Source: Methylococcaceae bacterium (GTDB taxonomy: Bacteria; Pseudomonadota; Gammaproteobacteria; Methylococcales; Methylomonadaceae). Taken from it: a stretch of 61,476 nt of DNA. Numbering within the stretch: the stretch's first letter is position 1; each line of letters begins with the position of its first letter. Made by a program: the position numbers and the translations under genes. The stretch lies in NCBI GenBank assembly GCA_006844585.1, contig SPJM01000348.1:1-61476 (forward strand), in the 5' to 3' direction. The notes beneath the pieces were generated by a model. The model made no database searches. It saw only the letters and a program-made list of their open reading frames with translations, and had not been told where the DNA came from. Shown here piece by piece: positions 2,815-18,532 of the stretch.

Positions 2815-3729
2815 TCAGTCTACTGATTGATTAAATAGGATTGCAGCCAGCAAACTAAGGCAAAGCCTGCCTTTAGCTAACGGCGCTAACCATAAGGCCT
2901 GCAATAAATGCCGGGTTGCGGTTATTTTGTCTCCGTTGCGGATTTCCCATTTGGCGTAATCGCATAACATGGTGGCGTAACATTGCGGCCATAAACTTTT
3001 TTGTGCGGATTCATTGAGCAATGTTTTATTTTTGTTCAGTACTTGCATAGCGCTTTCCCGCATTGTACTTAGGTGGCGGCTCATGCTGTCTGGGCGTTTG
3101 GTAATCACGGTATGAGTTTCCGGTATGCAGCAATACTCTCCATGCGCGGCGTAGCGCATCCACATATCGATATCTTCCAGGCTTTTCAGGGATTCGTCAA
3201 AGAAGCCGGCTTGCTCTTGTAATTGTTTGCGCACCATGACTCCGGAGCCGCTGCCGGTAATCGCAGCATTATGGGTGAAAATGGTTTCCAAAGTTGAATC
3301 GATAATTTCCGGACAAGGCCAGTCATTCAAAAAATCGCCTTCGGGCGTCTCGACGCGGGTTTGGCTGGAACAAAAACCGATTTCCTTATGCGCCTGCATC
3401 AAGCCAGCCTGTTTTTCCAGTTTGTCGGCGACCCAGTAATCATCAGCATCCAAAAATGCTAAATATTCGCCTTTGGATGCTTGAATGCCGGTGTTACGGG
3501 CATTGCTTAAGCCGCCGTTAACTTGGCTAATCAAGCGGATTCTCGGATCCTGATATTGTTCGACTACAGTCGGTGTGTTATCCGTGCTGCCGTCATTGAT
3601 TACCAAACATTCAAAATGCGGATAACTTTGCGCTAAAACGCTGTCTATCGCTTTTTCAATAAATGCGGAGGCGTTATAGGCCGGAATGATAACGCTGACC
3701 AACGCAGTTTTATTTTTTTCAGTTTGCAT
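2815..3729 (-). CDS. GT2-family glycosyltransferase
   Basis: A 304-residue GT-A enzyme. VSVIIPAYNASAFIEKAIDS (residues 11-30) is the typical N-terminal nucleotide-binding start. ECLVINDGSTD holds the donor-binding Asp, and AFLDADDYW (residues 91-99) is the metal-binding DxD region. A later SLEDIDMWMR stretch near residue 183 carries the ED pair expected for the catalytic base. It is one of four GT2 genes in the locus with the same architecture, and it is soluble. It sits between a sulfotransferase gene and the GT4 gene, in the same orientation. Confidence 0.88.
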   Translation of the reverse strand: MQTEKNKTALVSVIIPAYNASAFIEKAIDSVLAQSYPHFECLVINDGSTDNTPTVVEQYQDPRIRLISQVNGGLSNARNTGIQASKGEYLAFLDADDYWVADKLEKQAGLMQAHKEIGFCSSQTRVETPEGDFLNDWPCPEIIDSTLETIFTHNAAITGSGSGVMVRKQLQEQAGFFDESLKSLEDIDMWMRYAAHGEYCCIPETHTVITKRPDSMSRHLSTMRESAMQVLNKNKTLLNESAQKSLWPQCYATMLCDYAKWEIRNGDKITATRHLLQALWLAPLAKGRLCLSLLAAILFNQSVD

Positions 3730-3771
3730 GATGAGAGTTGACCGTTTGCTTTTCCTGCCATTAACAATTGA

Positions 3772-4704
3772 TTATAGATTGTATCCCAATGTTTTCATCA
3801 TCGGTTCGATAATCGGTAAAATCCGGTTGATCGCTTCCGGGTTTTGGGTTTTCCACTTTTCTTTTTTGGGTGGGCCGTTGACAATGCTGGTGGGACGCTT
3901 GTTTAGTGTTGCACAACGGTTTTTCAAGGCATCGCCGAACGGCAGATCCAGTTTATCGAAAACGTTTTCAAACATTTCCACCGGCGATTCAAATATATCT
4001 TCATAACGAATCTGAATCCATTGATTATTGGCAATTTCCGGTTTAGCTTCCAGCGCCATGCGGTTGGCGGTAATCCATTGATAAGCGCAAGCTTCTTCCA
4101 GGCTGGCGTGATTATAGTTACGCCAATCCGGCGGCAGAAAAAAACACCAATCATCAAATTCGCCGTTATTGATGGCGACTGTTTCCGGCAGTTGTCCTAA
4201 GTATTGTTTCAAATCAAAGCGACCGCGTTGTTTCCAGCCTTCCATCAAGGAGCTGATATTATCGCGTCCGTCGCGTTGTAAATAGATAAAGCGCGCGTTT
4301 GGGAATAAGGCGTGCAGATAAGCTATGCGCATTACATTTATGCAACTTTTATCCAACATCAGGCCTTGCCCCAAACGGGCGTAAAAATGCGCAAAAGCCT
4401 GGCTGCGATGCTCTGCTTGCGCATCATCTTTCTTCACCGCTTCGGACGCCCATTGTTTATCCCAGGGACCGACCAGACTATGCCAGAACTGGGGGATTTC
4501 GTAAGGAAAGGAAATCAAATCGGGAGAGCTGCGGATAGTTTCAAAAGTGACCGTGGTGCCGGCCCGCGAACAACCGATAATAAAAACCGGATCCGGCATA
4601 TCGGGGTGGGATAAGCGATACCACTGTTCTTTACCCTGATAACTTAAAGCCGTCAGGTTTTTTTTTATAAATTCCGGATCTGTTAATTTCTGAAATAAGC
4701 TCAT
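3772..4704 (-). CDS. PAPS-dependent sulfotransferase family protein
   Basis: About 310 residues with a 5'-phosphosulfate loop, PVFIIGCSRAGTT, at about residues 39-51. The 3'-phosphate-binding arginine/serine motif FIYLQRDGRDNISS lies about 90 residues later. These two motifs identify the sulfotransferase fold that moves sulfate from PAPS to hydroxyl or amino groups. I start at the ATG at 4704 rather than a TTG two codons upstream, which would overlap the preceding stop. It is the first of four sulfotransferase-fold genes within 16 kb. The substrate is unknown; a sugar of the surface polymer is the obvious inference. Confidence 0.82.
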   Translation of the reverse strand: MSLFQKLTDPEFIKKNLTALSYQGKEQWYRLSHPDMPDPVFIIGCSRAGTTVTFETIRSSPDLISFPYEIPQFWHSLVGPWDKQWASEAVKKDDAQAEHRSQAFAHFYARLGQGLMLDKSCINVMRIAYLHALFPNARFIYLQRDGRDNISSLMEGWKQRGRFDLKQYLGQLPETVAINNGEFDDWCFFLPPDWRNYNHASLEEACAYQWITANRMALEAKPEIANNQWIQIRYEDIFESPVEMFENVFDKLDLPFGDALKNRCATLNKRPTSIVNGPPKKEKWKTQNPEAINRILPIIEPMMKTLGYNL

Positions 4705-4706
4705 GG

Positions 4707-5648
4707 TCAATTTTTTTCCGCTAACAGAAAACCTTTCATTTCACCGATGGAGGCGGCTAAGCGCACTAAATAAAATCGCCGGGCTGAATTATTAAAGCTT
4801 GTCAGCGCACTGAATAAATAGCCTAATGTTTTTCTGAGCAAATAACGGGGAAACATGAAGCCTTTAAAGTTTTTCGCCTCGTCTCTTAAGCGCACTGTTG
4901 AAGATGAACGCTCATAGGCTTTTTTGATAACATAGCCCAGCGTCATGCGCTGGGATTCCACATAATGGTATTGAATAATAGTCGGTATATATTGCAGATG
5001 CGCGTCGGATTGATAAGCTCGAACTACCCAGTCGAAATCTTCAGCGCCGCCCAGATTATGACCGACCGGGCCGAGATCAGTTGAAAATCGGCCTATTTTT
5101 TTTAATAGCGGTCGTCTGATAACTAAATTGCCGCCGCCGGGTACGGCAATATCACGGTTAACCTGTAATGATTCTTCGCCTAGTTCAAAGCGCGGTACGG
5201 GTAAAGGATATATGCGATATTGGCCGCTATCATGCACCCATTCAGGCTCGCTGCCGTCCCAATCGGGAATGATTTTGCCGCAGAAAAAATCCGCCTGTGG
5301 ATAGTGTTCCGCAGCCTCGGCAATGGCGGTAAGATAATGCTCGTCAATGCGATGGTCGTCATCAACCATGGCGATCAAGTCGGCGGTTAATTGTGGGATT
5401 GCGGTGTTTAAAGCGTTGGACTTGCCCGGTGTCGGCTCTTCTATCCAGATTAGCGGAATATTGTTAGCTTGCTTGGATTGAGCATAATTATGCAAATATT
5501 CGGCGGTTTTGTCGCTACAGGCGTTGGCGACAACGAACAGTGAAACGGTATAATTTTCAGGGCGCGGAATTGCATTTAAAAAACTGATTGTGCGTTTCAG
5601 CAAATCGACCCGGTTATGGGTGCAAATTAGAATGCAAAGACTATTCAT
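4707..5648 (-). CDS. GT2-family glycosyltransferase
   Basis: About 313 residues when started at the internal ATG at 5648, which gives MNSLCILICTHNR, the normal beginning of a GT2 domain. A longer frame from 5693 would overlap the upstream gene by 44 bp and adds nothing recognisable. LIAMVDDDHR (residues 91-100) is the DxD metal site. The hydrophobic C-terminal third could associate with the membrane. It begins 1 bp from the stop of the upstream GT2 gene and its stop lies against the next sulfotransferase gene, so translation is probably coupled. Confidence 0.85.
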   Translation of the reverse strand: MNSLCILICTHNRVDLLKRTISFLNAIPRPENYTVSLFVVANACSDKTAEYLHNYAQSKQANNIPLIWIEEPTPGKSNALNTAIPQLTADLIAMVDDDHRIDEHYLTAIAEAAEHYPQADFFCGKIIPDWDGSEPEWVHDSGQYRIYPLPVPRFELGEESLQVNRDIAVPGGGNLVIRRPLLKKIGRFSTDLGPVGHNLGGAEDFDWVVRAYQSDAHLQYIPTIIQYHYVESQRMTLGYVIKKAYERSSSTVRLRDEAKNFKGFMFPRYLLRKTLGYLFSALTSFNNSARRFYLVRLAASIGEMKGFLLAEKN

Positions 5649-5649
5649 T

Positions 5650-6597
5650 TCAAGAAGACGATTTGTTGAAGTATTTTTTTGCATAACAAACAATCTGACC
5701 TAAAAAATGATTGACAGTCATTCGTTGCCTGAATGTAGCATTGAAGCCTTGGGTGAGAACCTGAGCCCCGTATTTACCGATACTTTTCACAAATTGGACA
5801 TATAAAAATAGCGGGACGCCGATAAACGTGCGTTTATATTGCTTATGGTCAAATTTGGCTTTTTGAAAGCCGGCGTTGTAGTGAACGGTGAGAAAAAAAT
5901 CTTTTTTCAGTTGATAAGGTAAAATTTTGTGCTGCACAATGGCGTCTGGTTCATACCAAATTACCCCTTTACGGTCAGTCAGTTGGTGAAAAAAAACGGT
6001 TTCTTCGCCTTTAAACAGTTCTTCTTTTTTATTGCCTTCGCCTTTGCGCCCCATGTCGGTGTTAAACCCGCCTAATTCGACAGTAATATCGCGGCGTATC
6101 GCCATATTGCCGCCATAAGGAAACTCGTCCTGACCGTTCATTCTAAACGCTTTATCGCCAAAATCATTTTGGCCGAGAAAGCCGTATAATTCCGGGGTCA
6201 GCCATTTGGGAAAAGCCTCGGGGCTTTCAACGTAGATGCGACCGCCGACGGCATCACACTGTTCGCTTTTGAAGCGATCATATATGGATGCTAGCCAGTT
6301 AGGGGTGACGCGAATATCATCATCGATAAAAATGACATATTCAGCTTTCGAAGTGTGAATGCCGCAGTTGCGGGCAAATGACAAGCCCTGATTTTTCTCG
6401 AATAAATAGCGAATGTTAATAGGATATTTTTTTTGCTCTTGTTCAACGACGGAGCGAGTCGCATCGGTGGAATTGTTATCGACAATCAACGCTTCCCACT
6501 GAAAATGATCGGTATTTTCCTGAGCCGCTAAATGACTAATGCAATCTGGTAAATTATGACTGCGATTGAAAGTGCTGACAATGATGCTGATATCCAT
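5650..6597 (-). CDS. GT2-family glycosyltransferase
   Basis: A 315-residue GT-A enzyme that begins MDISIIVSTFNRSHNLPDCI. EALIVDNNSTD is the donor-binding strand and YVIFIDDDIR (residues 87-96) the metal-binding site. FPYGGNMAIRRD and GEETVFFHQL later in the protein fit the acceptor region of succinoglycan-type GT2 enzymes. It is one of three glycosyltransferase genes separated by at most a few base pairs, clearly one transcription unit. The donor sugar is not predictable. Confidence 0.88.
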   Translation of the reverse strand: MDISIIVSTFNRSHNLPDCISHLAAQENTDHFQWEALIVDNNSTDATRSVVEQEQKKYPINIRYLFEKNQGLSFARNCGIHTSKAEYVIFIDDDIRVTPNWLASIYDRFKSEQCDAVGGRIYVESPEAFPKWLTPELYGFLGQNDFGDKAFRMNGQDEFPYGGNMAIRRDITVELGGFNTDMGRKGEGNKKEELFKGEETVFFHQLTDRKGVIWYEPDAIVQHKILPYQLKKDFFLTVHYNAGFQKAKFDHKQYKRTFIGVPLFLYVQFVKSIGKYGAQVLTQGFNATFRQRMTVNHFLGQIVCYAKKYFNKSSS

Positions 6598-6601
6598 AGA
6601 T

Positions 6602-7372
6602 TTATCTCAAACGGGCGAGCAAGCGATTAAAATAGTATTTTAGCGGATAAGTCATTTCAGCGTTATTAACGCCGAAAGTGATTTTTTGATTCAACGCGCG
6701 CACCGAATCTGTTCCATACACCTCAAGTCTTCTTAAGCTCAATCGATTGGTCTTGAGGTTGTTGAATCCGGACAATGTTGAACAAGCGCTGCTGAAGCCG
6801 ACCTTAGCGGCCATTTCAATCGCCGTGTCATTCAACAATCCATAAGGGTAAGCAAAATGCTTAACGGTGATATCCAGTTTGTCCTCTATTTGGCGTTTGC
6901 TTTCCTGTAGCTCAACAAGCATTTGTTCGGCGCTTAATTCAGGCAATTTAACATGATTGACGGTATGAGCGCCGATGGAAATGCCTTGATCATACATTTG
7001 TTTGACTTGCGCCCAGCTTAACATATCGCGTTTTGGGTAGCCGTTTTCATGCATCCAGTGGTTAGTGCCTTCAATGACGCCGGTAGCCAGGAAAATGGTT
7101 GCCGGTATGTCGAACTTTTTAAATATAGGCAGGGCGTTTTCATAATTGTCGCGGAATCCGTCATCCAAAGTAATGGCGATGGTTTTTTCCGGCAGTGCTT
7201 GTTCCCGGTCGAAATGATCTATGATGGCGTCCAGGCTGACGATGTTGTAACCTTGTGCGCGTAAAAACTGCATGTGTTTATGCAGGGTTGCTGGCGGGCA
7301 GGCATAACGTTTTTCCTGAGAGGTCTCAGGTTCTGAAACCATATGGTACATTAAGATAGGAAATCGGCTCAT
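6602..7372 (-). CDS. Polysaccharide deacetylase (CE4/NodB family)
   Basis: A 256-residue NodB-homology enzyme with all main motifs visible. ITLDDGFRDN (D70-D71) contains the catalytic base and metal Asp, GAHTVNHVKL (H136 and H140) the metal histidines, and FAYPYG the groove-forming motif. It begins MSRFPILMYHMVSE with no signal peptide, as is common in enzymes that act on lipid-linked sugars in the cytoplasm or in capsule loci. The reaction is hydrolytic removal of N- or O-acetyl groups. A freed amine could be the target of the N-formyltransferase-like protein or of N-sulfation by one of the sulfotransferases; that link is inference. Confidence 0.9.
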   Translation of the reverse strand: MSRFPILMYHMVSEPETSQEKRYACPPATLHKHMQFLRAQGYNIVSLDAIIDHFDREQALPEKTIAITLDDGFRDNYENALPIFKKFDIPATIFLATGVIEGTNHWMHENGYPKRDMLSWAQVKQMYDQGISIGAHTVNHVKLPELSAEQMLVELQESKRQIEDKLDITVKHFAYPYGLLNDTAIEMAAKVGFSSACSTLSGFNNLKTNRLSLRRLEVYGTDSVRALNQKITFGVNNAEMTYPLKYYFNRLLARLR

Positions 7373-7386
7373 TGTTCCTGTTCGCT

Positions 7387-8334
7387 TTAAGTTCTTTGGG
7401 ATAATTGTAATAGTTTTTGTAAAAAACGTGCGGGCAGCAGGCTTAGCAGAATATATTTCAAGTCTTTAAAATGCCAATAGCCGTTTTTAAAACACTGTTT
7501 GAATAAGATACTGGAAGTGTCAATATCGCGCCGCCAATAGGCTCGGTAAGCGTTTAATAATAAGTTGCCGTTGATTAACTCATTGAGCGTTGCTTTGGAA
7601 AAATGGGTTAGCATTTCGGGATGTTCCGCAGCGTAATCTTTTCTGACTTTCCAGGCGTCCAACACCTGTCGGGATTTGATGGCGGAAATTTGGCCGCTGT
7701 CATGCCATCGATAATAGGCCAGTACCTTAGGCGTATGGACGATTTTTTGCGTCACAGCCGTCATCCGCAACCAAAGGTCGAAATCCAGGGCTGTAAAATA
7801 GCGCTCGGAAAAACCGCCTAATTGTTTGACGATATCATGTTTAATCAAGGCGGCGTGAATCGGCCACGGGCACGATTTCATAAAGGCGGCGACAATATCG
7901 CCTTGTTCATAAATCGGCGGAGTATAAGGGTCGGTGCTGCCGCCGCCATCGTGTCCGACATTTTGCCAGCCGCAGTAGGCGACATCGGCTTGTTGTCCTG
8001 TTAAAGACTGATAAAGCTTTTCCAAACAGTCTGGTTCCCAATAATCGTCGGCGTCCAGAAAAGCGATATATTCGCCTTGCGCATAGCGGAGCGCATGATT
8101 CCTGGCCGGATAAGGCCCCTGATTACTTTGTTGGTAACTGCTGATGTTGATTTTTTTTTCATTGACAAAGCTTTGGCAAATTTCAAAACTGTCATCAGAT
8201 GAACCATCGTCAACAATAATCAACTCAATATGCGGGTAGCTTTGCTTGATCACGCTGATAATGGCTTCTGCGACATAGTCTGCCGCATTATAGCAGGGCA
8301 TGATGACGGAAATGAGTGGATAGGCGGTATTCAC
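7387..8334 (-). CDS. GT2-family glycosyltransferase
   Basis: 315 residues starting with a GTG codon at 8334. LISVIMPCYNAADYVAEAI opens the GT-A domain, LIIVDDGSSDDS is the donor site and AFLDADDYWE (residues 91-100) the DxD region. FTALDFDLWLRM, near residue 185, carries the expected catalytic acidic residue. It closely parallels the GT2 protein encoded at 2815-3729, which suggests duplication within the locus. It is followed after 14 bp by the deacetylase gene. Confidence 0.87.
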   Translation of the reverse strand: MNTAYPLISVIMPCYNAADYVAEAIISVIKQSYPHIELIIVDDGSSDDSFEICQSFVNEKKINISSYQQSNQGPYPARNHALRYAQGEYIAFLDADDYWEPDCLEKLYQSLTGQQADVAYCGWQNVGHDGGGSTDPYTPPIYEQGDIVAAFMKSCPWPIHAALIKHDIVKQLGGFSERYFTALDFDLWLRMTAVTQKIVHTPKVLAYYRWHDSGQISAIKSRQVLDAWKVRKDYAAEHPEMLTHFSKATLNELINGNLLLNAYRAYWRRDIDTSSILFKQCFKNGYWHFKDLKYILLSLLPARFLQKLLQLSQRT

Positions 8335-8358
8335 AAGAATTGCTCAATGAGTGGTTGA

Positions 8359-9489
8359 TTAAACGTTGCCCAGGAATTTCATGATCTTATAGCGAATATT
8401 GTCCGGGTCGGTAGGTATGGTTGTATCGCGCATCAAAACTGAATGTTTGTTTAACTTATCGCGATTGAAGGCGACATTGCCTTCCGTATAATAAAGGATG
8501 GTGACTTTATTTTGAGGCCTGGCTTCCAGTTTTTCGACAAAAGCGGCTTTTTTTAAATATTTTTCATAATATTCGATAGCGTTCTTTTTCATTTTTTGGA
8601 TGCTGGCGTCATCCATGCCAAACACGAAATCGATTTTTTCCATTAAATCTTGCTGACTATCAAAGGCAATACAGTTTACGCCATGTTCCAGATTGGGCTG
8701 CATCCATTCCGGGTAGTTGGTAAACGGGATGCTGCCTATCGCCATCGCTTCAGTAATATTATGGCACATAGGCATGACGATGCCGGGTGGGCTGAAGAAA
8801 AAGTCACATTTCGCCAGCGTGTCCAGCCAGAGTTTGCCATCAATGCGTTGCGTATCATTATCGATTATCACAAATTTATTGTTGAATTCACCGTTCATTA
8901 CCTGTTGGAAAGTATCTTCATCTTGAATAATTTGTAATTTATCTTGATCAAGATTGTCTTTGATTGATTCGACAATGATTTGTCTGGGTAACTTTTCTTC
9001 AGGATGCCGTATCCAAACACGTTTATATTTATCAATATCACCAGCAAATAAAATGCGAATATTTCTTTTTACTTCCCGTAGCTCAGGCAATCTGGGTATA
9101 TAGCCGTATATTTCCTGCAAAGGATGCACAGGAAAAGGCATGATCATCGGTTCTTCAAACCAGTATTTAGAATGTAAATCGTATTTTAAATAGATTTGTT
9201 TTTGCCATTTGGCGTTATTGAATTGTGAGTCTTTATGATCATATAAGTATACATAGTCTTCAGTATCCGCAGGCGCAGAGTCGACTATTTCAACATTTTC
9301 CAAATCAAAGGTGGGTGTTCCATAAACTTCTAGGTTGTGGAGTTCAGGTCTGTCGAGAATTGAAATAATATAACCGGATTCTTTAAACGTGTTGATAACG
9401 GAAAAAAATATTCTTCCCCATTCAGAAAACGTATATTTGGAGTTCAAATTAGCAAATAATAATTTTTTTCCTTCCATTTTGCCCACCAT
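8359..9489 (-). CDS. Putative GT-B glycosyltransferase
   Basis: 376 residues, soluble. The second half has features of the nucleotide-sugar half of a GT-B enzyme: NIRILFAGDIDKYKR, then FFFSPPGIVMPMCHNITEAM, where His and Glu sit as in capsule transferases, and AIGSIPFTNYPEWMQP. The canonical GT4 E-x7-E motif is absent, so the CAZy family is uncertain. An internal Met (codon 5) is an equally possible start. The position between a GT2 gene and a sulfotransferase gene supports a role in polymer assembly. A non-glycosyltransferase function cannot be excluded. Confidence 0.55.
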   Translation of the reverse strand: MVGKMEGKKLLFANLNSKYTFSEWGRIFFSVINTFKESGYIISILDRPELHNLEVYGTPTFDLENVEIVDSAPADTEDYVYLYDHKDSQFNNAKWQKQIYLKYDLHSKYWFEEPMIMPFPVHPLQEIYGYIPRLPELREVKRNIRILFAGDIDKYKRVWIRHPEEKLPRQIIVESIKDNLDQDKLQIIQDEDTFQQVMNGEFNNKFVIIDNDTQRIDGKLWLDTLAKCDFFFSPPGIVMPMCHNITEAMAIGSIPFTNYPEWMQPNLEHGVNCIAFDSQQDLMEKIDFVFGMDDASIQKMKKNAIEYYEKYLKKAAFVEKLEARPQNKVTILYYTEGNVAFNRDKLNKHSVLMRDTTIPTDPDNIRYKIMKFLGNV

Positions 9490-9579
9490 TGTTATTGTTT
9501 TTTGATATATCGAGTAAATTTAGCAGATATGATTAATCTCGCTTCAAAAATTGAGCGGATTAAATCGGGGCTGAATAAT

Positions 9580-10878
9580 CTAGCCGTTGTTTAACTTGGA
9601 CTGGCATAAAATATCGGAAAGCCGCCAGTCGCTATTATTGTATAGCGGTTCGTTACGATTCGTCCTGTCGACTAATTCAACGTTTAAGGACTTCAAAAGC
9701 GCATGGGAGGCGGCTAGTTGCCATTCCATGCAGTCTGCAATTGAAAAGCTAAAGGAATGGGTTTGCTCTATTTTTTGACAAATCAATGAGGCAATATTAT
9801 TCGAAGCTTTGATTTCAGTATGATTTATATTTGCAGAATTGTTTTCCTGTGTCGGAATCGGCGATAAAATTTTTTTCGTTTCTGACCCGGATATTTTAAA
9901 GGATCCTTTATTCAAGGCGCCATAGTATACGACATCATTGGCTGGAAAATAAATTATACCTAAATAAGGTCGACCGTCTTCAATTAAAGCGACATTAACG
10001 CTGAATGTCAAAGGGTCGGCTTCAGACTGAGCTAGGTATTCAGGGCAACTGATTAACCAAAAATGATTCCACTGATTTCGAATATCTAAAGGAATATCAT
10101 GATGGCTACTCGTTACAATGGGGATGTTTTTATCTAGATTTTTTAGCGCTTTTTCAATGTTATTTTGCGATCTTCGGACGGCCTTATAAATTCTATCAGT
10201 TGTGTTTATTTGAAATAATGAAAAAACGGATGTTTTGAGTTTTTCTAATGCCGAGTTTTTCGGCGAGGTTAATTGATGTAAATTATAGCTTTGGTTGCGG
10301 ATATTCTGCGACAGTTCATGAATATTTAGCCATCTGATTTGAGTGACGTTGCTTTTTGGAAAGGGTACGTTTGGAAAGGGTTTGCCCAAAAACGGGCAGA
10401 GTTTGTCCCATCCTTCTCCGCTGGTAATATCAATAATCAGCAAATCGTCAGGTCGATTTTGAAAGTAGGTTTTAACGTCTTTAATAAACTGTAGGTAACC
10501 CTGTTTAAATTTGTTTTCATCAAAAACAGCCGTGCCGTAAAGATCATAAATTAATTCGTTATGAGCTTCTGTTTGCTTGTCCGCGAGCTTTTGATTGAAT
10601 TGCTTTTTACAAGATTTTAACCAGCCTTCCATGCTGCGGATGGTTAAAATAAATTTAGAGCCTGGATAAGCTTGGTCAAGTTCTTTATAGTAGCTTGGGA
10701 TCGGAGTATCGGTTAATGCATTATATTCAGCTAATGCGTTTTGATTGATAGCTGTGATGTCTCCTTTTCTATAATTTTCTATGCCGAGACAGTCTTTAAC
10801 ATGGTAGCCAAGAATGGATAATGCTTTTGCTAGACTTGATGTGCCTGTTTTTGAAAGGCCTATGCCAAAAACTTTCAC
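9580..10878 (-). CDS. Sulfotransferase fused to a degenerate CysQ-like (PAP phosphatase) domain
   Basis: I start at GTG 10878 because GGAG lies 10 nt upstream; a TTG at 10938 would add 20 residues with no useful ribosome site. Residues 1-180 are a sulfotransferase domain with P-loop KVFGIGLSKTGTSS and KFILTIRSMEGWLKS as the 3'-phosphate motif. Residues 250-425 align with CysQ, which hydrolyses 3'-phosphoadenosine 5'-phosphate, the by-product of sulfotransferases. Shared landmarks are FSVNVALIEDGRPYLGIIY, MEWQLAASHALL and PLYNNSDW. The metal-binding motifs are lost: the expected TEED reads TSSH, DPLDGT reads SCPEYL and the Asp after EW is Gln. The second half is therefore probably not a phosphatase. 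A PAP-sensing or structural role is inference. Confidence 0.75.
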   Translation of the reverse strand: MKVFGIGLSKTGTSSLAKALSILGYHVKDCLGIENYRKGDITAINQNALAEYNALTDTPIPSYYKELDQAYPGSKFILTIRSMEGWLKSCKKQFNQKLADKQTEAHNELIYDLYGTAVFDENKFKQGYLQFIKDVKTYFQNRPDDLLIIDITSGEGWDKLCPFLGKPFPNVPFPKSNVTQIRWLNIHELSQNIRNQSYNLHQLTSPKNSALEKLKTSVFSLFQINTTDRIYKAVRRSQNNIEKALKNLDKNIPIVTSSHHDIPLDIRNQWNHFWLISCPEYLAQSEADPLTFSVNVALIEDGRPYLGIIYFPANDVVYYGALNKGSFKISGSETKKILSPIPTQENNSANINHTEIKASNNIASLICQKIEQTHSFSFSIADCMEWQLAASHALLKSLNVELVDRTNRNEPLYNNSDWRLSDILCQSKLNNG

Positions 10879-11025
10879 TATTGCATTGCTCCGTTTTATG
10901 TTGCTTAATTGAAAATTACACTTCCGTAAATTCGGCAATCGTTTTGCGTTTTTTGTATGCTGTATTCGGCGTACTAACGTTGTTGCGCCAAATATTTTAT
11001 AGAATTACCTTTTACCCCAAGCAGT

Positions 11026-11949
11026 TTATTCGTTCACGCCGTAATCCTTAAGTTTCCACAAATGAAAGCCTTTCCTGTCATCGAAATGCAAATATTCAAG
11101 TGTAACTCGAAAAGACGTTGTTTGATAAACGATTGATGGAATATGTATTTCTAAATCATCTTTGACTTGGCCGGTCATTAAGCCGGTGAATGGTGTTTTA
11201 TTGACGCCGAAGTCTGTTAATTGCCAGATTAGCTCATTCGGATCGCTGTCTAAATATTCCAGCTTAGCCCACAAGTTCAGCGTTTCCGAACCGTTTTGAA
11301 AATTTAAGGAAGGAGAATGTATATTGAGAGCTGCGGTTAGTACGCCGGAACTGTCCTCAGGGACAACGTCTCCATCGCGTACAGGCCATGCGTAGCGGGG
11401 GTTGCCGCCGCGCAGCGTTGTTTTGTGCACCCGTTCAAAAGACCATTGCCAATAAAAGTCTTTGCGCACGCCATTGTCGGTTGGCGTGGTGCAAGTACCT
11501 CGTTCTGCGCAAGGATCTATTCCATCCCTATAGGGCGTTGCCGTCCAGTAACGAATTGCCTGTACATTTTCAAACAGAGGATTGCGATAAGGGTCAGCGG
11601 TTGCCGTTAATAATTCCATTTCTCCACCGAGGCAATCGGCTCGGCGTTCGTAAAAGATAACGCTGCCGTAATTTGTGTCAGCTCTAACATCCTCAGTGCA
11701 AGTCGGGTCATCGTATCGAGTTGTGGAAGGTAGGCGCCAATCATCGAAACCTTGGTAAACCAAGGTTTCGGCCCATTCTACAGCTGTTTGTTGAGGCATT
11801 TTGCCATTGATATCGGCATTCTGAGTCCAGGTTAAATCCTGATTGCTATCATAAATGAGTCCGTTTCCTCGATCAATAATGTCGGCATAAGGCGTAACGG
11901 TTGAAAATAATAAAATGTTAAGAGTGCTTATGGATAAAACATTTTTCAT
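11026..11949 (-). CDS. Secreted DUF1566-type protein
   Basis: 307 residues with an N-terminal signal peptide (about 1-22, MKNVLSISTLNILLFSTVTP followed by YA). The body has the DUF1566/Lcl C-type signature: IDRGNGLIYDSNQDLTWTQN, GFDDWRLPSTTRY, then YWTATPY and RYAWPVRDGD. Such domains resemble C-type-lectin-like folds in exported proteins. The last 100 residues are a separate beta-rich region. It is the most upstream gene of the leftward polysaccharide operon, divergent from the flippase fusion gene. The function is unknown; binding to the polymer at the surface is a guess. Confidence 0.7.
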   Translation of the reverse strand: MKNVLSISTLNILLFSTVTPYADIIDRGNGLIYDSNQDLTWTQNADINGKMPQQTAVEWAETLVYQGFDDWRLPSTTRYDDPTCTEDVRADTNYGSVIFYERRADCLGGEMELLTATADPYRNPLFENVQAIRYWTATPYRDGIDPCAERGTCTTPTDNGVRKDFYWQWSFERVHKTTLRGGNPRYAWPVRDGDVVPEDSSGVLTAALNIHSPSLNFQNGSETLNLWAKLEYLDSDPNELIWQLTDFGVNKTPFTGLMTGQVKDDLEIHIPSIVYQTTSFRVTLEYLHFDDRKGFHLWKLKDYGVNE

Positions 11950-12024
11950 GGTGAAATATGAACCTTATTCATAAATTTAATATTTGAAATATAACATAAA
12001 AACTAAATTGGTGCCGCTCTTGTT

Positions 12025-12053
12025 TTGATATATAGTATTGCTTCCCTTATACT
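12025..12053 (+). promoter_or_regulatory. Sigma70-type promoter of the flippase fusion gene
   Basis: TTGATA (12025-12030) and TATACT (12048-12053) are separated by exactly 17 bp, and the start codon follows 50 bp after the -10 box. It lies in the 154-bp divergent region between the DUF1566 gene and the flippase fusion. Confidence 0.6.
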
Positions 12054-12103
12054 TCCGAAATTTGCGGTTTTAAAATAGCAAATTTATCTTACAAAATGGT
12101 TAT

Positions 12104-15100
12104 ATGGACTTAGGAAAAAACATTCGCTCTGGGGTTGGCTGGCTGATTATCGGCAATACCGGTTCCCGCATTACTGAATTTGTTTTTGGCGTTGTGTTGG
12201 CCAGGTTATTGGTGCCAGCGGATTTTGGAATGATTGTTACCATACAGGTGTTTACCGGTTTTGTCGGGATGCTGGCTGGCGGTGGAATGGGGCAAGCGTT
12301 AGTGAGGAGTAAAGAGGCTGAAGATGAAGATTTTACCGCTGTCTTTACCTTGCAGCTTGCTATCGCCATTCCCATTTATCTCGGATTTTATTTTAGCGCG
12401 CCTTGGTTTGCGGCATTTTTCGGCAATCCTTTATATGAGCAACTAGTGCCGGTATCGGCATTAATGTTTTTTTTGCGACCGGTGACCGGCATTTACAGTT
12501 CCTGGTTAAATCGGGATATGAAATTTAAGGAACGTTCATTAATAGGTATTTTGTCCCGCCTGGTTTCGAATCTAGTCAGTATTGTTTTGGCGTGGTATGG
12601 GTTTGGGGTTTGGAGTTTGACTCTGGCCGGTTTAGTGGGCGGCATGTTCACCAATTTGGCTTTATCTTTTGTGACGCCCTTAAAGTTAAAACTGCATTTC
12701 AATTTTTCTTTGATGCGTAAGCATGGAGAATATGGTTCAAAAATAGTAGCTAATGACTTTTTTACGCATGTGCGTAAAGAGTCTTTAAAGTTGATTTTAA
12801 GCAAACTGGCTGGGCCGACTTTTTTGGGCTTATTCAATAAAGCGGAGAGTTTGCATCGATTGCCTTATTGGATGTTGGGTCAGCCGGTTGCGCAACCGGT
12901 TTTCAGGGCAATGTCCAAAGCGCAGGATAATTTGGATCAAACCAAGTACATGTTTTATCGGGTAATTACGCTGCTGATGGTATATGTGCTGCCTTTCTTT
13001 GTTGGAATGTGGTGGGTGGCTCATCCTTTTATTCAAGTTGTTTACGGCGAAAAATGGATGTTGGCGGCGGAGCCGTTAAAAATTCTTTCTCTTGCGGGTT
13101 TTTTCTATATTATTTCCAGGCCTTCCGGTTTGCTGTTAATGGCGCAAAACCGCTTAAAACAACAAATCGTTGCGCAAGCGATCATTTTGGTATTTACTTT
13201 GGTCGCTTGCTATTTGGGCCTGGAATGGGACTTAGTCGGCGTTAGTTGGGCGTTTTTATTCAGTCAAGTGTTTACCGCTTTTTATTTTTACTTACTGGCC
13301 TATTTTACGATTCCAACGAGATTGAAAGATTTGTTAATCGCAATAAAGCCCGGTTTTTTATTAAATGTAGCGCTATTTTCGACGCTGTGGCTAACCGATT
13401 ATTTTAGTAATCATTTGTTGAATAATTATCCGGAATTGTATTTATTGCTGATGGTTTTTATCGGTGGTTCTTTTTATGCCGCATGTGTTTTATTGATAAA
13501 AATACCGGCGTTGGAAACTGAAAAAAAGCGTATTTTAGAAAAATTGAACAGCATATTCATCATTTTCAAAAAAATTGTGAAAAAATTTATTTTAATCGTT
13601 TTTAAATTATTAATATTTTTGCTTTTGCTGGCGGCTCTTGGCTTGGCCGGATCGTTAATCTATAAGCAATATATCGCTTCGAAAGGGTTTATTGAAGATA
13701 AAACTTTTCCATTAAATGAGATTTTTCGATTTTATGATCTAGGTATTGTAGATGCCAACAATGATGGGCGCTTGGACATTTTTACCGCTAACCATCATTT
13801 TCGACAATATTTACTGATTCAAGACGAACAGGGAGCTTATCAAGATCAGTTATTTGGTTGGCAGCTCGGTCAAAGCCGGGAATTTCCTCGGGCGGATTTG
13901 ACATTTACTGCGCCGGTGCTTGATGAGCCTGGGTTGTATATTTATTGGTACGGCACCAAGCTATTGATTCGCTCCCATAAAATGGCTGATCTGGGTAAAG
14001 CGGGCGGAAAGTTGGAAGTGCTCGATCCGGTTAACATTGAAAAAAACAAAGGCTTTGTGCTGGATAAGCAAGAAACAAGGGTTAAACAATTGGAGCATAG
14101 AAAAATTGTCAGGACGGTTCTGGAATTTTCAGCGGATAAGGATGCTTATTTAAGAATGATGCCGGGAGGACAAGGATTACCGTTAAATTTTACAATTAAT
14201 GAGGATTTCGATCTGGGACAGGTTTATGTCGGGTTGGGTAAGGTTTCACCAAAACAGCATCAATTTTCTTTAACTATGTTGGATCGCCATGCTATGGCTT
14301 GGGCTGATTACAATAGCGATGGTTTGCTGGATATTTTTATAGACCGTGGAGCGTTAAGTGGCACCTTGCGCGCATTTCCGGATGAAATTCGCGCTTTAAT
14401 TAAAGACGAATTATTGATTCGCAAGCCGACCGGCGGCTTTGATGATATTACGAGGCGGGTCGGAATCGAGAAAAAAGATTGTTCTGGACGTCACGCGCGC
14501 TGGTTGGATTTTAATCATGACGGACTATTGGATTTGTTTGTCAATTGTTATGACAGAGACCATGTGCCGGGCGATTTTCCAAAACAATTGTATATTCAAA
14601 ATCAACAGGGAAATCTGGAAGATAGGGCGCTGGCTGCGAACGCCGGACTATCGGATCAACAAATGGGCAGTTTTGCCTGGTTTGATGTTGATGATGACGG
14701 TGATATTGACTTAGTTAGTCTACAGAATGAAGGGTTTTTCTTGCACCGAAACGAAGGTGGCGTATTGAATCATGAATTGATACACCGGCGTCAGTTGTCC
14801 GGGAAACAAATCGGAAGTACGGCGGAAGCGGTTTGGCTGTACGATGGTAAGATTACGATTGCTGATTATGATAATGACGGCGATCTTGATTTTTTTGCGT
14901 CCTCAAAACGCGGTAATTTTATGTTTGCCAATCAACAGGGACACTTTAGCTACGTCGAACCGTCGTCAATAGGCTTGCCGGAATTTAGCATGAATGCGCA
15001 ATGGGTGGATTACGACAATGACGGGTTGATCGATTTACAAGCGGTTCCTCAGGGTCTTTTTAAGCAAGATGCTGAACATCGCTTTCATGTAACGGATGTT

Positions 15101-15565
15101 CTGGCGTTTAATTCACAACAGTATCAAGCGGCTGTCAGTAATTGGTTTGATATGGATAATGATGGGCTTATGGATATGATTGTGGCCTTGAATAAAAATC
15201 TGGATTATAAGCCGTGGTGGGAATTTAATCGAAAGCACAGTTTGCAAACAACATGGTATGCTAAAGTTTACCGAAATAGGATCAATTCGGAGAATCATTG
15301 GTTACAAGTAAAGCTAATCGGCAATTCCGGTAATAAGCAGGCTATCGGTGCGCGGGTGACGATATTTTCTGAAAACAGCATTCAAACGCAAGAAGTTGGT
15401 AGTAGTGAAGGCGCCTTCTTTTCACAAGGGCATTACCGATTATATTTCGGGCTTGGAAAAAACGAACAAGTTAAACGTATTCGAGTCAGGTGGTCTAATG
15501 GACAGGAACAAACCATTGAAAATATCAATGTTGATCAATTGTTGGAAATTAAACAGCTAGTATAG
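12104..15565 (+). CDS. Wzx-type flippase fused to FG-GAP beta-propeller and ASPIC/UnbV domain
   Basis: 1153 residues. Residues 1-475 are a complete MOP-superfamily exporter of the WzxC type (start MDLGKNIRSGVGWLIIGNTG, conserved AGGGMGQALVRSKE, SSWLNRDMKFKERS), with about 12 membrane helices. A basic stretch and a further helix occupy residues 485-520. After it come seven DxDxDGxxD-like calcium motifs near residues 549, 734, 802, 861, 921, 968 and 1016, typical of FG-GAP/VCBS propellers. An ASPIC/UnbV-like end (LQVKLIGNSGNKQAIGARV) follows at about 1064-1150. The frame is open throughout. With 12 helices plus one, the propeller would lie in the periplasm, where flipped glycans arrive. Flippases usually end at 400-500 residues, so this is an unusual fusion. 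Confidence 0.85.
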   Translation: MDLGKNIRSGVGWLIIGNTGSRITEFVFGVVLARLLVPADFGMIVTIQVFTGFVGMLAGGGMGQALVRSKEAEDEDFTAVFTLQLAIAIPIYLGFYFSAPWFAAFFGNPLYEQLVPVSALMFFLRPVTGIYSSWLNRDMKFKERSLIGILSRLVSNLVSIVLAWYGFGVWSLTLAGLVGGMFTNLALSFVTPLKLKLHFNFSLMRKHGEYGSKIVANDFFTHVRKESLKLILSKLAGPTFLGLFNKAESLHRLPYWMLGQPVAQPVFRAMSKAQDNLDQTKYMFYRVITLLMVYVLPFFVGMWWVAHPFIQVVYGEKWMLAAEPLKILSLAGFFYIISRPSGLLLMAQNRLKQQIVAQAIILVFTLVACYLGLEWDLVGVSWAFLFSQVFTAFYFYLLAYFTIPTRLKDLLIAIKPGFLLNVALFSTLWLTDYFSNHLLNNYPELYLLLMVFIGGSFYAACVLLIKIPALETEKKRILEKLNSIFIIFKKIVKKFILIVFKLLIFLLLLAALGLAGSLIYKQYIASKGFIEDKTFPLNEIFRFYDLGIVDANNDGRLDIFTANHHFRQYLLIQDEQGAYQDQLFGWQLGQSREFPRADLTFTAPVLDEPGLYIYWYGTKLLIRSHKMADLGKAGGKLEVLDPVNIEKNKGFVLDKQETRVKQLEHRKIVRTVLEFSADKDAYLRMMPGGQGLPLNFTINEDFDLGQVYVGLGKVSPKQHQFSLTMLDRHAMAWADYNSDGLLDIFIDRGALSGTLRAFPDEIRALIKDELLIRKPTGGFDDITRRVGIEKKDCSGRHARWLDFNHDGLLDLFVNCYDRDHVPGDFPKQLYIQNQQGNLEDRALAANAGLSDQQMGSFAWFDVDDDGDIDLVSLQNEGFFLHRNEGGVLNHELIHRRQLSGKQIGSTAEAVWLYDGKITIADYDNDGDLDFFASSKRGNFMFANQQGHFSYVEPSSIGLPEFSMNAQWVDYDNDGLIDLQAVPQGLFKQDAEHRFHVTDVLAFNSQQYQAAVSNWFDMDNDGLMDMIVALNKNLDYKPWWEFNRKHSLQTTWYAKVYRNRINSENHWLQVKLIGNSGNKQAIGARVTIFSENSIQTQEVGSSEGAFFSQGHYRLYFGLGKNEQVKRIRVRWSNGQEQTIENINVDQLLEIKQLV

Positions 15566-15632
15566 CGGCATGCGCATTTACAAAGGGACTATTCGTTTGT
15601 GATGAAGCGTTTATTTTAAGAGAGCAGGGTTA

Positions 15633-16355
15633 ATGGTCATATCACATAGCTATAAATTTATATTTATTAAATCATTTAAAACCGCAGGAACTAGTATAGA
15701 TTCTACGCTTTCCACTTTTTGTAGCGGCGACGATATTGTTTTGCCGTTGAATGATTTTAAGCATAATCGTAATGAAAAAGGCGAATTTATCCATAAGGCG
15801 ATGAACGCTGAAGAGTTTATTAAATTGGATTTGCCCAATCTTCAGCATGTAAACGCCGAAATAATTAAACAAATGGTTGTGCCGGAAGTATGGGAAAATT
15901 ATTTTAAATTCAGTATTGTTCGAAACCCATGGGATAGAGCTATTTCCTACTTTTTTTGGCATAACCGCAATAATCCGGCTCTTAAGCCAAAAAAGAAGTT
16001 CTATCATTATTTAGGCGTCCCATTAGATGAATTGTCTCACTTGAAAAAGCTGTTTTCTGAATATATCAGAAACAGGGAATTGCCGAGTAATGAACCCTTT
16101 TATATGATCGATAATGAGTTGTGTGTTGATCAGGTGATTCGTTACGAAAACCTGGCTGAAGATTTTAAATCTATCTGTCAAAATTTAGGATTGCCAATAG
16201 CGGAGTTACCACATTTGAAAGGCGGAATGAGATCAGGAGGGTATCATTATTCGCAATTTTATGATGATGAAACTCAGGAGATTATTGCTAGAACACATCA
16301 GAATGATATTCGATTATTCAATTATGCATTTGAAAGTCAATCGGGAAATGTTTGA
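15633..16355 (+). CDS. Sulfotransferase family 2-like protein
   Basis: 240 residues. FIFIKSFKTAGTSIDSTL (about residues 8-25) is the 5'-phosphosulfate-binding loop in the form found in membrane-glycan sulfotransferases of the Sulfotransfer_2 group. FKFSIVRNPWDRAISYFFWH near residue 95 is the 3'-phosphate motif. A ribosome site, AGAGCAGGG, lies just upstream of the ATG. It follows the flippase fusion by 67 bp on the same strand and its 3' end overlaps the convergent heparinase-like gene by 19 bp. It is probably a polymer sulfotransferase. Confidence 0.82.
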   Translation: MVISHSYKFIFIKSFKTAGTSIDSTLSTFCSGDDIVLPLNDFKHNRNEKGEFIHKAMNAEEFIKLDLPNLQHVNAEIIKQMVVPEVWENYFKFSIVRNPWDRAISYFFWHNRNNPALKPKKKFYHYLGVPLDELSHLKKLFSEYIRNRELPSNEPFYMIDNELCVDQVIRYENLAEDFKSICQNLGLPIAELPHLKGGMRSGGYHYSQFYDDETQEIIARTHQNDIRLFNYAFESQSGNV

Positions 16356-18532
16356 TAGGCGCTGGATTCAGAAGCAGTTGAGTTTATCGATATGGTCGTT
16401 GAACGAAAAAATGACCCGCTTAAAAATCCTGTAGAAATAACCTTTTCCGCTTTTTCTTTTTGATAAGCGGCGAAAGCATCCCATTCGAAGCCTTTGTGGC
16501 GGATTATTTGCTTTTGAGGGTTAATAAAAATTGTCCAACTTATATTGTTTTCAATGATCTTGAGCTTAAAGAAATCAATATTCTCGGTTTTTATCCGAAT
16601 GAATTCCTCAAGTTGAGGAGTATCTTGTTGTTCGGCTAACAATAGCGTAATTAAAGTCGCTTTAGCCGTGCTAGGAATTTTTAGTCGTACTGTTTTAGAA
16701 GGGTTTTTCTTATTATAAATATGCGAGACCCAGTCGTCATCGATTTTGATTGAATGGCTCGTCGGGTGATCGCTTAAAAAATGCATTGAATGGTCGCCGC
16801 CCGGGGTTTTCAGCATAATTGAGCCGTTTTGTGTTTGGCTGGCCTCACCTCCAGCGTCTAAGTGGTAAGAGCTGGTCCAATCACCGGTTTCAGTTGAAGT
16901 GAGCTGATCGATAATTATCCAAATATTGGGCAAAATACCTAACAAACTACGCTCATGTTGATAACCCCCGGCGTGTTTTTTGTTCTCGATGTTATCGTCG
17001 GACTCAATAGAGGTGTCAAGATAGCCTTTTAATAATATTGTTGAATCGGTAGTTTCGGGTTTTTCGTATAATGTTAATGAGCGCGGATCTAAACGGTTCT
17101 GATAGCCGGGTTGGTCGAGTCCGTTAAAGCTGATAGTGTTATGCGCCAATGTCCGTTTGAAACTGGCTCTCCAGTTTTTTTTCGCTAACAACTTGAGCAT
17201 TGGTCGCCAGCCGTTTTTGATAAGCGTGACCGGAATTTGCCGAAGTGAAACAAAATGCTTGGGTTGTGGGCAATAAGTGAATCGCCCTGGATCGGTGAAA
17301 ACAGCTCCCGAACTGGTATGTAAAAGGAATTGCAGATCATCGCAGTGTGAGTGACCGCTTTTTTTATTTTTTGGTTTTCCTGAGCAATCAAAAAATAAAT
17401 ACCCCAGTTTTTGATTGTCGTAGAGCCAACGAACAATTAGCCAGCCGCTTGCCTCCATGGTCGTCAGGTGCTCTTTTTGATGGCTATTGGACTTAATTTC
17501 AGCGAAATAGTCTATTTTGTTGATAATACGTTTTGAGGCAAACACTTCATGATAAAAGTCCACGAGATAATCTATTGTGAAGCGATCAGAATCTCCGATA
17601 GCCGGTATTGCGCTTTGAGGGTCGCAAATAGCAGCCAACGCTTCCAACATGGCGGCGATAGTGTGCTCCAATGTTGTGTCAATCGGCTGATCATTGGCTT
17701 TAAGAGCCACGCAATAGTCGAGTAAGGCCAGCGCTACTTGGCCGTGATACATAGGTACTTGTTCAACTTCAATGGCGTCAGACTGTATTTCCGTTTTAAT
17801 GGTTTGATCAAGCTTGGTTTGCGCTTTAATGCGCCATGTTTCGACATCAACATATTCTTTCAAAAATTCCGCTGCGATAAGAAGGGCGGTGGAGGCAAAA
17901 AAAGCGCCGTTAGCCCGCGTCTCCTCTAATGCATTCAAAAGGAATTCGACATCCAGAAAAATATTTTCTAGGACTTCAAAATGTGTTGATTCAGGGAAGT
18001 GTTCAACTCGACAAATTAAGTCGTATGCGCGAATTAAATTGATTAATCTGACAGCGACATTGATCAGGAATTTCCAATGCCTACCTTTTTTTTGTCTGGA
18101 TTCATGAAAGCTACTCAAATAGGATTGAAATGAAGCAAGATATTTGCAATTGGCCGTTAGTTGGTAGGCGGCGGCCAAGTCAATCATATGGTTGAATCTA
18201 ACTAATGAATCAATCCATTCATCATCGCCATTAGGGGGCGAAAACCAGTTTATGTTTTTTTTCAGGCGGTAAGGCTTGTGGGTAACCTCCATGTGCCATG
18301 GATGCCAATAAATTATTCGCCGTTGGCAGGCCATGTCGGCCATTTGAACTAATGTTTCAATGTCCGGGAAGCGTTGATTGAATACAGTTGAATGAGCGCC
18401 GTCTTTCGGCCAGTAGCGAGATGCATTAAATTTTAAGAATGAAGAAGGAATCTCGGCGTTGTCTAGTTGCAGCCTGTAGTTTTGTTTTAGTGCTTTGTAG
18501 GTTGCCAGGTATTTAAAGGACTGTTGTTGCAT
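16337..18532 (-). CDS. Heparinase II/III-family polysaccharide lyase
   Basis: 731 residues. The N-terminal half is helical and resembles the alginate-lyase/heparinase toroid (YWHPWHMEVTHKPYRLKKNI, FNHMIDLAAAYQLTANCKYL). The C-terminal half carries the heparinase II/III hallmark GHSHCDDLQFLLHTSSG at about residue 391, then VFTDPGRFTY, and further beta strands. No signal peptide is visible at the chosen start. Family members cleave uronic-acid-containing polymers by beta-elimination. In capsule and EPS operons they trim or clear the product. Together with the sulfotransferases this points to a glycosaminoglycan-like polymer, which is inference. Confidence 0.82.
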   Translation of the reverse strand: MQQQSFKYLATYKALKQNYRLQLDNAEIPSSFLKFNASRYWPKDGAHSTVFNQRFPDIETLVQMADMACQRRIIYWHPWHMEVTHKPYRLKKNINWFSPPNGDDEWIDSLVRFNHMIDLAAAYQLTANCKYLASFQSYLSSFHESRQKKGRHWKFLINVAVRLINLIRAYDLICRVEHFPESTHFEVLENIFLDVEFLLNALEETRANGAFFASTALLIAAEFLKEYVDVETWRIKAQTKLDQTIKTEIQSDAIEVEQVPMYHGQVALALLDYCVALKANDQPIDTTLEHTIAAMLEALAAICDPQSAIPAIGDSDRFTIDYLVDFYHEVFASKRIINKIDYFAEIKSNSHQKEHLTTMEASGWLIVRWLYDNQKLGYLFFDCSGKPKNKKSGHSHCDDLQFLLHTSSGAVFTDPGRFTYCPQPKHFVSLRQIPVTLIKNGWRPMLKLLAKKNWRASFKRTLAHNTISFNGLDQPGYQNRLDPRSLTLYEKPETTDSTILLKGYLDTSIESDDNIENKKHAGGYQHERSLLGILPNIWIIIDQLTSTETGDWTSSYHLDAGGEASQTQNGSIMLKTPGGDHSMHFLSDHPTSHSIKIDDDWVSHIYNKKNPSKTVRLKIPSTAKATLITLLLAEQQDTPQLEEFIRIKTENIDFFKLKIIENNISWTIFINPQKQIIRHKGFEWDAFAAYQKEKAEKVISTGFLSGSFFRSTTISINSTASESSAYQTFPD

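Follow-up and report, generated by a model that had tools for sequence, protein, structure and literature searches.

A flippase fused to a calcium-motif beta-propeller next to sulfotransferase genes in two bacterial genera

Structure of the fused gene

The window (the whole 61,476-nucleotide stretch analysed here, from contig SPJM01000348.1 of a Methylococcaceae bacterium) carries a fused flippase-propeller gene of 1153 amino acids at positions 12104-15565 of the plus strand. The original prediction of one 1153-codon frame was confirmed: the gene is a single ATG-to-stop frame, and the same fusion occurs in a second genome, G798. The MOP/Wzx flippase half spans residues 1-477 (12104-13534, +), with a Pfam match to Polysacc_synt_3 (PF13440) at residues 31-319 (E 4e-64, 217 bits against a cut-off of 23) and a match of the NCBIfam MOP flippase model PRK10459 to residues 3-475 that scored under the model's own cut-off. 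The protein thus resembles MOP flippases of the Wzx/WzxC/TuaB type in its N-terminal half, but runs on into one more helix and then a propeller about 620 residues long. A basic loop, predicted to be cytoplasmic (residues 466-495, 13499-13588, +; nine K/R and three D/E), precedes the extra transmembrane helix at residues 496-514 (13589-13645, +). This hydrophobic segment, which had also been anticipated, has the highest hydrophobicity of any 19-residue segment found (Kyte-Doolittle 2.99); a hydrophobic segment also stands at the N-terminus of the six stand-alone propeller orthologues tested. An in-frame GTG at codon 492 (13577-13579, +) lies near the start of those stand-alone genes, without Shine-Dalgarno-like pairing upstream.

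The predicted beta-propeller follows at residues 531-1076 (13694-15331, +). Exactly seven DxDxDGxxD motifs were counted, as claimed, all on the plus strand, starting at residues 550 (13751-13777), 735 (14306-14332), 802 (14507-14533), 861 (14684-14710), 921 (14864-14890), 969 (15008-15034) and 1016 (15149-15175). To judge from these motifs, which fit the Dx[DN]xDG pattern of calcium-binding blades in the CRTAC1 family, the propeller is probably calcium-binding. A beta insert is predicted at about residues 610-698, between motifs 1 and 2. FG-GAP_3 matched four stretches of the protein (E 1e-25, 90 bits, above the Pfam cut-off), and the expected ASPIC/UnbV C-terminus was recovered as a UnbV_ASPIC domain at residues 1080-1147 (15341-15544, +; E 1e-19, 70 bits, above the cut-off).

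The surrounding cassette

A sulfotransferase gene (Sulfotransfer_2; 15633-16355, +) lies 67 bp 3' of the fused gene, and its homologues adjoin the propeller gene in G798 and at locus L059. The remaining cassette genes described here are on the minus strand. They encode a second sulfotransferase (Sulfotransfer_4) with an inositol-phosphatase-like C-terminal domain (9580-10938; homologues in L044, L059 and G798), a third (Sulfotransfer_3; 3772-4710), GT2 glycosyltransferases (2815-3729, 4707-5693, 5650-6597 and 7387-8334), a polysaccharide deacetylase (6602-7372), an Lcl_C-domain protein (11026-11949) and a 376-amino-acid protein with no Pfam match whose G798 counterpart is 70% identical (8359-9489). 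The scan of the cassette genes turned up no Wzy polymerase.

Distribution of the fusion

G798, an assembly of two contigs from another genus of the same family, encodes a fusion of the same architecture that is also 1153 amino acids long. The two proteins are 66.4% identical across 1151 aligned residues with zero gaps, and the cassette around the G798 gene is syntenic, with 53-77% identity between its genes and those of the window. The fusion is conserved between these two genomes, which belong to different genera; both hosts are probably methane-oxidising bacteria. Because architecture and length are shared with G798, and because both halves have close homologues, the fusion goes beyond chance.

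The fusion is rare. It was found in 2 of 237 genomes of the family, and the only full-length match in a search of 101 genomes was the window's own, so the idea of a widespread fusion was rejected. Alignment searches with the propeller, made in overlapping draws of genomes, gave matches in 5 of 369 genomes from the class (apart from the window's own, these were four open frames of 674-838 amino acids), 1 of 299 from the phylum (that of the window itself), 2 of 237 in the family, 1 of 18 in the G798 genus (G798 itself), 2 of 94 relatives of G384, and 2 of 3 and 1 of 4 genomes in two small families. Across the order, ASPIC proteins were listed at 50 sites, spread over 38 of 301 genomes; the genome of the window holds two of these sites. 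The remaining 48 comprise 42 in the 40 regions that were examined, one in L034, and five that were left out (G062, G870, G913, G843 and G769). An open reading frame matching the propeller profile was present in 36 of the 40 regions, some of them cut by contig ends, and only at L098, the G798 locus, did the same frame also match the flippase profile; the other ASPIC proteins of these regions were accordingly rejected as fusions. A frame of 1009 amino acids in G055 was likewise rejected, the flippase there being 487 amino acids long when counted from the first start. A plasmid search with the whole protein returned 297 records with partial matches and none covering 80% of it. In the titles and abstract beginnings listed by literature searches, mostly outside subscription journals, neither a flippase-propeller fusion nor a role of CRTAC1 in sulfated polysaccharides was described.

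Separate genes in relatives and evolution of the junction

At L045 and L046 the flippase and the propeller are separate adjacent genes (gaps of 206 and 45 bp), and at L044 they are separated by a sulfotransferase gene. The flippase half is 58-59% identical to the separate flippases of these three loci. Separate flippases measure 484-496 amino acids in the nine closest relatives, and 403 and 477 in two more distant ones. In trees built from each half the fused pair is monophyletic, with support of 100/100 and 97/98. Among eight regions with more distant flippases (L034-L039, L041 and L042), only L034 has a propeller gene, so flippases of the distant type generally function without a propeller.

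No part of the protein evolves faster than the linker and helix (28-37% identity). Residues 478-530 have a dN of 0.72, compared with 0.23 and 0.25 for the two halves; dS was saturated and no dN/dS ratio was obtained. Poor conservation of the linker would suit a fused frame that still yields two working proteins, by an internal start or a cut after synthesis, the fusion then altering expression more than function. In-frame starts near the ancestral propeller start exist in both genomes (GTG at 13577 in the window; ATG at codon 493 in G798). Weak Shine-Dalgarno pairing would be no bar to their use, being common among window genes, and the stand-alone genes of L059 and L034 (+0.2 each) and the listed start of L047 (+2.2) also lack such pairing. 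Against this, the internal starts pair little or not at all (+2.2 kcal/mol for the GTG; -2.2 and -0.4 in G798), whereas the separate genes in L044, L045, L046 and L048 pair at -4.2 to -8.1. A TTG at codon 514 of the window gene scores -4.8 but falls within the helix, and the gap-free alignment with G798 argues for one continuous product. Production of two proteins therefore seems unlikely, while keeping some weight.

Linkage to sulfotransferases and exporters

A sulfotransferase gene was found within 3 kb of the propeller orthologue at 8 of 11 loci (9 of 12 with the window), a count made with ten queries that were all taken from orthologue loci and is therefore biased toward them. No sulfotransferase gene was found within 3 kb at L047, L048 or L046, where the contig ends 689 bp past the gene. 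L049 additionally has, in its vicinity, an inositol-phosphatase-type gene and a fusion for PAPS synthesis (ATP sulfurylase plus APS kinase). As a control, 57 immediate neighbours were collected at loci carrying other ASPIC proteins; 34 of the 35 loci contributed and one gave none. Of the 60 families matched by these neighbours, the 25 listed include no sulfotransferase; one of the neighbours, at L110, does match one of the sulfotransferase queries. Together with the G798 counterparts of each of the cassette's three sulfotransferase genes, the frequency of sulfotransferases near propellers upholds the proposed sulfated-glycan setting.

Exporter genes lie within 3 kb of the propeller at 5 of the 11 orthologues, namely Wzx in L044-L046 and Wzt/Wzm-like ABC exporters in L059 and L060; counting both fused genes, 7 of 12 propellers are linked to an exporter. 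The propeller family is thus linked to sulfotransferases and to two kinds of exporter. Because some orthologues adjoin Wzx and others ABC exporters, the propeller follows sulfated-glycan export and not Wzx alone, and probably serves the exported sulfated glycan, not flipping as such. The fusion first put forward is real; the ABC-linked orthologues speak against a role confined to flippases. Since the separate genes of relatives lie mostly near sulfotransferase genes, the propeller is probably a helper for sulfated polysaccharide export. In one published account (PMC13125312), cyanobacterial sulfated-polysaccharide systems (synechan and the xss genes) similarly combine Wzx/Wzy or ABC exporters with sulfotransferases; the words "Propeller" and "CRTAC1" are absent from its main text.

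Fold of the propeller and likeness to known proteins

AlphaFold models were of low confidence for the propeller alone (pLDDT 61, pTM 0.49) and for the fused protein (pLDDT 51, pTM 0.34), and the latter was set aside as too uncertain. The top Foldseek match of the propeller model was murine CRTAC1 (9etn), at a TM-score of only 0.28-0.32; a second fold search gave CRTAC1 a Z of 13. The propeller shares FG-GAP_3 and UnbV_ASPIC, both above cut-off, with the CRTAC1 family, and differs in being fused to a flippase, in its probable membrane tether and in the insert that follows the first motif. The seven-bladed GlcNAc lectins of Psathyrella and Agrocybe (PVL, PAL, AAL) aligned with the low-confidence model over 313-315 residues at Z 15.4 (rmsd about 5). 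They are fungal and soluble, are 13-15% identical to the propeller and are likened to it by fold alone. All 50 matches listed in the second search had Z of 12 or more, unrelated propellers among them, so the fold gives no proof of sugar binding.

One of these matches, the propeller enzyme aldos-2-ulose dehydratase (Z 14), raises the prospect of a propeller that does more than bind: a periplasmic lyase, epimerase, ligase or similar enzyme with the sulfated glycan as its substrate. Many polar residues outside the calcium motifs are invariant across six propeller orthologues, which fits such an activity. Lectins, however, scored as well or better in the fold searches, and Pfam and NCBIfam found no catalytic family in the propeller half; we regard an enzymatic role as unlikely.

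A comparable joining is seen in Mycobacterium tuberculosis MviN, a protein of the MOP type that is not known to carry a propeller. In the description published for it, MviN is a transmembrane peptidoglycan-synthesis protein that carries a carbohydrate-binding domain and also a pseudokinase domain; pathway and pseudokinase set it apart from the present fusion, and the joining of such a membrane protein to a carbohydrate-binding domain is, on that description, already known (PMC12599244).

Membrane topology

MOP flippases have 12-14 transmembrane helices. Twelve hydrophobic segments precede the extra helix in the window protein on the Kyte-Doolittle scale, a crude method that gives 11 in G798 and 10-11 in relatives; the GES scale gives 11 in all for the window protein. 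Because these counts vary between the proteins, the segment number alone is a weak argument. The loops alternate in charge, and the one leading into the extra helix carries 9 K/R in the window protein and 6 in G798; all six stand-alone propeller orthologues tested begin with a hydrophobic segment. This charge pattern, with the N-terminal anchors of the relatives, suggests that the propeller is periplasmic, as originally proposed. Sulfotransferases use cytoplasmic PAPS, and the linkage of propeller genes to sulfotransferase genes would also accord with a cytoplasmic propeller that couples sulfotransferases to the flippase. That arrangement has little probability given the twelve preceding segments, the basic loop and the anchors of the stand-alone proteins.

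Discussion

An assembly or sequencing error that merged two genes might be suspected from the 376-contig assembly, the run of seven A at the junction and the stops that the remaining frames hit nearby, but is very unlikely and deserves hardly any weight, because two-contig G798 carries the same 1153-residue gap-free fusion in a syntenic cassette with a different junction sequence, so that G798 would have to be wrong as well. The idea that the poly-A run had gained or lost one base, merging two overlapping genes, was dropped on the same ground. The window's listed open reading frames contain 56 homopolymer runs (at least 7 for A/T, at least 6 for G/C), and in passing no broken gene was noticed among them.

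The best explanation, to which we assign a probability of roughly 0.55 as a whole, is that a Wzx-type flippase and a propeller encoded by separate genes in relatives became one protein, in which a tethered periplasmic propeller holds sulfated glycan as it leaves the exporter, within a sulfated exopolysaccharide cassette. The cassette's sulfotransferases would probably sulfate a lipid-linked repeat unit in the cytoplasm before it is flipped, and the flippase half, set among glycosyltransferases and sulfotransferases, is predicted to move it to the periplasmic face. The extra helix would take the chain across the membrane and keep the propeller, stabilised by calcium, at the exit of the flippase. 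At that point the propeller may bind the emerging sulfated glycan, so that it neither slips back nor diffuses away, and may pass it to polymerisation or secretion; the periplasmic site, calcium binding, sugar binding and hand-over we infer. As first proposed, the propeller might also order repeat units or bind calcium bridged by sulfate.

More tentatively, the propellers could represent an unrecognised family of periplasmic sulfated-glycan receptors that partner whichever exporter is present, Wzx or ABC, and that in two methanotroph genera were built into the flippase, physically coupling export and capture. To our knowledge, the retention of flipped repeat units and their transfer to the polymerase are poorly understood. 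By tying a flippase to a second component, the natural fusion hints at the protein at work in these steps and offers one gene to test, and the linkage of propellers with sulfotransferases draws attention to what may be an overlooked element in the way bacteria make sulfated polysaccharides.

The fused gene and its protein

The frame at 12104-15565 (+) of the window encodes 1153 residues, with Pfam matches to Polysacc_synt_3 (residues 31-319), FG-GAP_3 (four stretches) and UnbV_ASPIC (residues 1080-1147). The DxDxDGxxD motif occurs exactly seven times in the protein, and residues 496-514 form a strongly hydrophobic segment preceded by a loop that holds nine basic residues. The original prediction of a flippase joined by an extra helix to a seven-motif propeller with an ASPIC/UnbV end was accurate by Pfam, motif count and hydrophobicity. 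Both halves are, by sequence, members of known families; the literature searched yielded no flippase-propeller fusion with an added helix. MviN of Mycobacterium tuberculosis is presumably a membrane protein of the flippase half's type. MviN is described as carrying a carbohydrate-binding domain, a precedent for such a joining (PMC12599244). The window's own genome encodes a second ASPIC protein of 1203 aa with FG-GAP, ASPIC and HEAT repeats (L043:6025-9636, contig G000:C153). Another genome of the bacterial family encodes an 888-aa flippase (L024:133-2799, G043:C11) with PF13440 at its start and a long C-terminal extension of ~390 residues without a Pfam match; no significant similarity was found between this extension and the window's ORFs.

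The window is an entire contig of a 376-contig genome, so assembly error needed consideration, and a seven-A run and an in-frame GTG at the junction, near the start position of separate propeller genes, made a frame error plausible at first. Scanning the order's genomes for ASPIC proteins turned up the same fusion in a genome of the same family and a different genus, assembled in two contigs (G798). That protein also has 1153 residues and is 66.4% identical to the window protein over 1151 residues, gap-free, with a different junction sequence. An artefact joining two genes is therefore very unlikely, and the second fused gene backs the proposal of one genuine gene.

Both fused genes have internal start codons near the old propeller start. 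Shine-Dalgarno pairing there is little or none (window, +2.2 kcal/mol; G798, -2.2 and -0.4); separate genes at L044, L045, L046 and L048 score -4.2 to -8.1. Since the stand-alone genes at L059 and L034 score +0.2, the listed L047 start scores +2.2, and weak sites are common among window genes, the evidence only leans towards a single polypeptide.

Origin of the fusion and its cassette

Propeller-half homologues are present in public genomes. At L045 and L046 the flippase and propeller are encoded separately, with 206 and 45 bp respectively between the genes; the flippases (492 aa) share about 60% identity with the window half, and the propeller proteins, of 654 and 667 aa, share about 54%. At L044 a sulfotransferase gene sits between the two. 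The fused proteins cluster together in both half-trees (propeller, 100/100; flippase, 97/98). The separate L044 propeller is sister to the fused pair (98/97); the flippase tree gives no settled order for L044 versus the L045/L046 pair. A single fusion event between neighbouring genes would explain the grouping in both trees.

The cassette contains three sulfotransferase genes, four GT2 glycosyltransferases and one deacetylase. Each gene from 2815 to 16355 is kept in G798 (53-77% identity), and window genes just outside have no counterpart there. This, taken with a cassette present in 2 of the 237 family genomes searched, suggests lateral transfer. Both fusion-carrying genomes most likely come from methanotrophs, because each has an AMO/PmoA-family gene (PF02461). 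The gene at 9580-10938 (-) encodes a sulfotransferase fused to an inositol-phosphatase-like domain, with homologues in L044, L059 and G798; one polypeptide would perhaps make the sulfated product and clear PAP. A Heparinase II/III-like gene at 16337-18532 (-) is convergent with the sulfotransferase gene that ends at 16355 and overlaps its end; in G798 the place beside the counterpart sulfotransferase gene is taken instead by a gene whose 655-aa product has no Pfam match.

Linkage to sulfotransferases and exporters

Eleven orthologous propeller genes were defined by a profile score > 300, the window left out. At 8 of these loci a sulfotransferase gene is found within 3 kb (9/12 with the window); it overlaps the propeller gene or lies within 111 bp of it at 8/12, window included. 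The neighbour is a sulfotransferase by Pfam in the window, L045, L049, L060, L061 and L062, and by homology to one of the window's sulfotransferases in G798, L059 and L044. At L046, L047 and L048 no such gene turned up within 3 kb; the L046 contig ends 689 bp past the propeller gene. The L049 orthologue (5842-8040), from a Nitrospira assembly, is broken into two ORFs; the same stretch also holds an ATP-sulfurylase/APS-kinase fusion together with an inositol-phosphatase-type gene, a kit for PAPS synthesis and perhaps PAP clearance.

Among 46 other propeller-profile ORFs, six have a sulfotransferase within 3 kb, a comparison biased by all ten sulfotransferase queries having come from orthologue loci. 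Five of the six share loci with an orthologue (two in L060, two in L062, and, in L049, the second fragment of the broken orthologue); L110 is the only locus without one. As a less biased control, Pfam was run on 57 immediate neighbours at 34 of 35 other ASPIC loci, the L110 neighbour included; no sulfotransferase was among the 25 families listed of 60 matched, a list that includes only some of the families with a single matching neighbour. The distant ASPIC protein at L110:4122-8869 (G096:C8) is flanked by a sulfotransferase-like and an ABC-type gene, so the linkage may extend beyond orthologues. Among the order's other ASPIC proteins (L093-L132), the cytochrome c554 and MtrC/MtrF-like families each match 11/57 immediate neighbours; by gene neighbourhood, these proteins form a separate ASPIC group with links to multihaem cytochromes.

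Exporter genes within 3 kb of the propeller are a Wzx flippase at L044, L045 and L046 and an ABC exporter (Wzt_C + ABC2_membrane) at L059 and L060; judged by these neighbours, the propeller accompanies polysaccharide export of either kind. In G071 (L034) the gene for a more distant ASPIC propeller is separated by 77 bp from that for a flippase sharing 40% identity with the window's; no propeller gene is present in the seven remaining distant flippase regions that were examined (L035-L039, L041, L042). Cyanobacterial sulfated-polysaccharide systems are reported to pair either exporter kind with sulfotransferases, matching the propeller loci (PMC13125312).

Proposed role of the propeller

A low-confidence model gives the propeller half a fold similar to those of CRTAC1 and the seven-bladed GlcNAc lectins; motifs 1 and 2 are predicted to be separated by a beta insert. 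All six stand-alone propellers tested have an N-terminal hydrophobic segment, which, with the charge pattern of the fused protein, suggests the periplasmic side, as originally proposed. PAPS for sulfotransferases is cytoplasmic, so the repeat unit would probably be sulfated before flipping. Most likely the propeller acts as a tethered receptor, which would hold the sulfated glycan where the exporter releases it, may bind calcium and may pass the glycan on. The wider link between a propeller family and glycan sulfation may be of more interest than the fusion itself.
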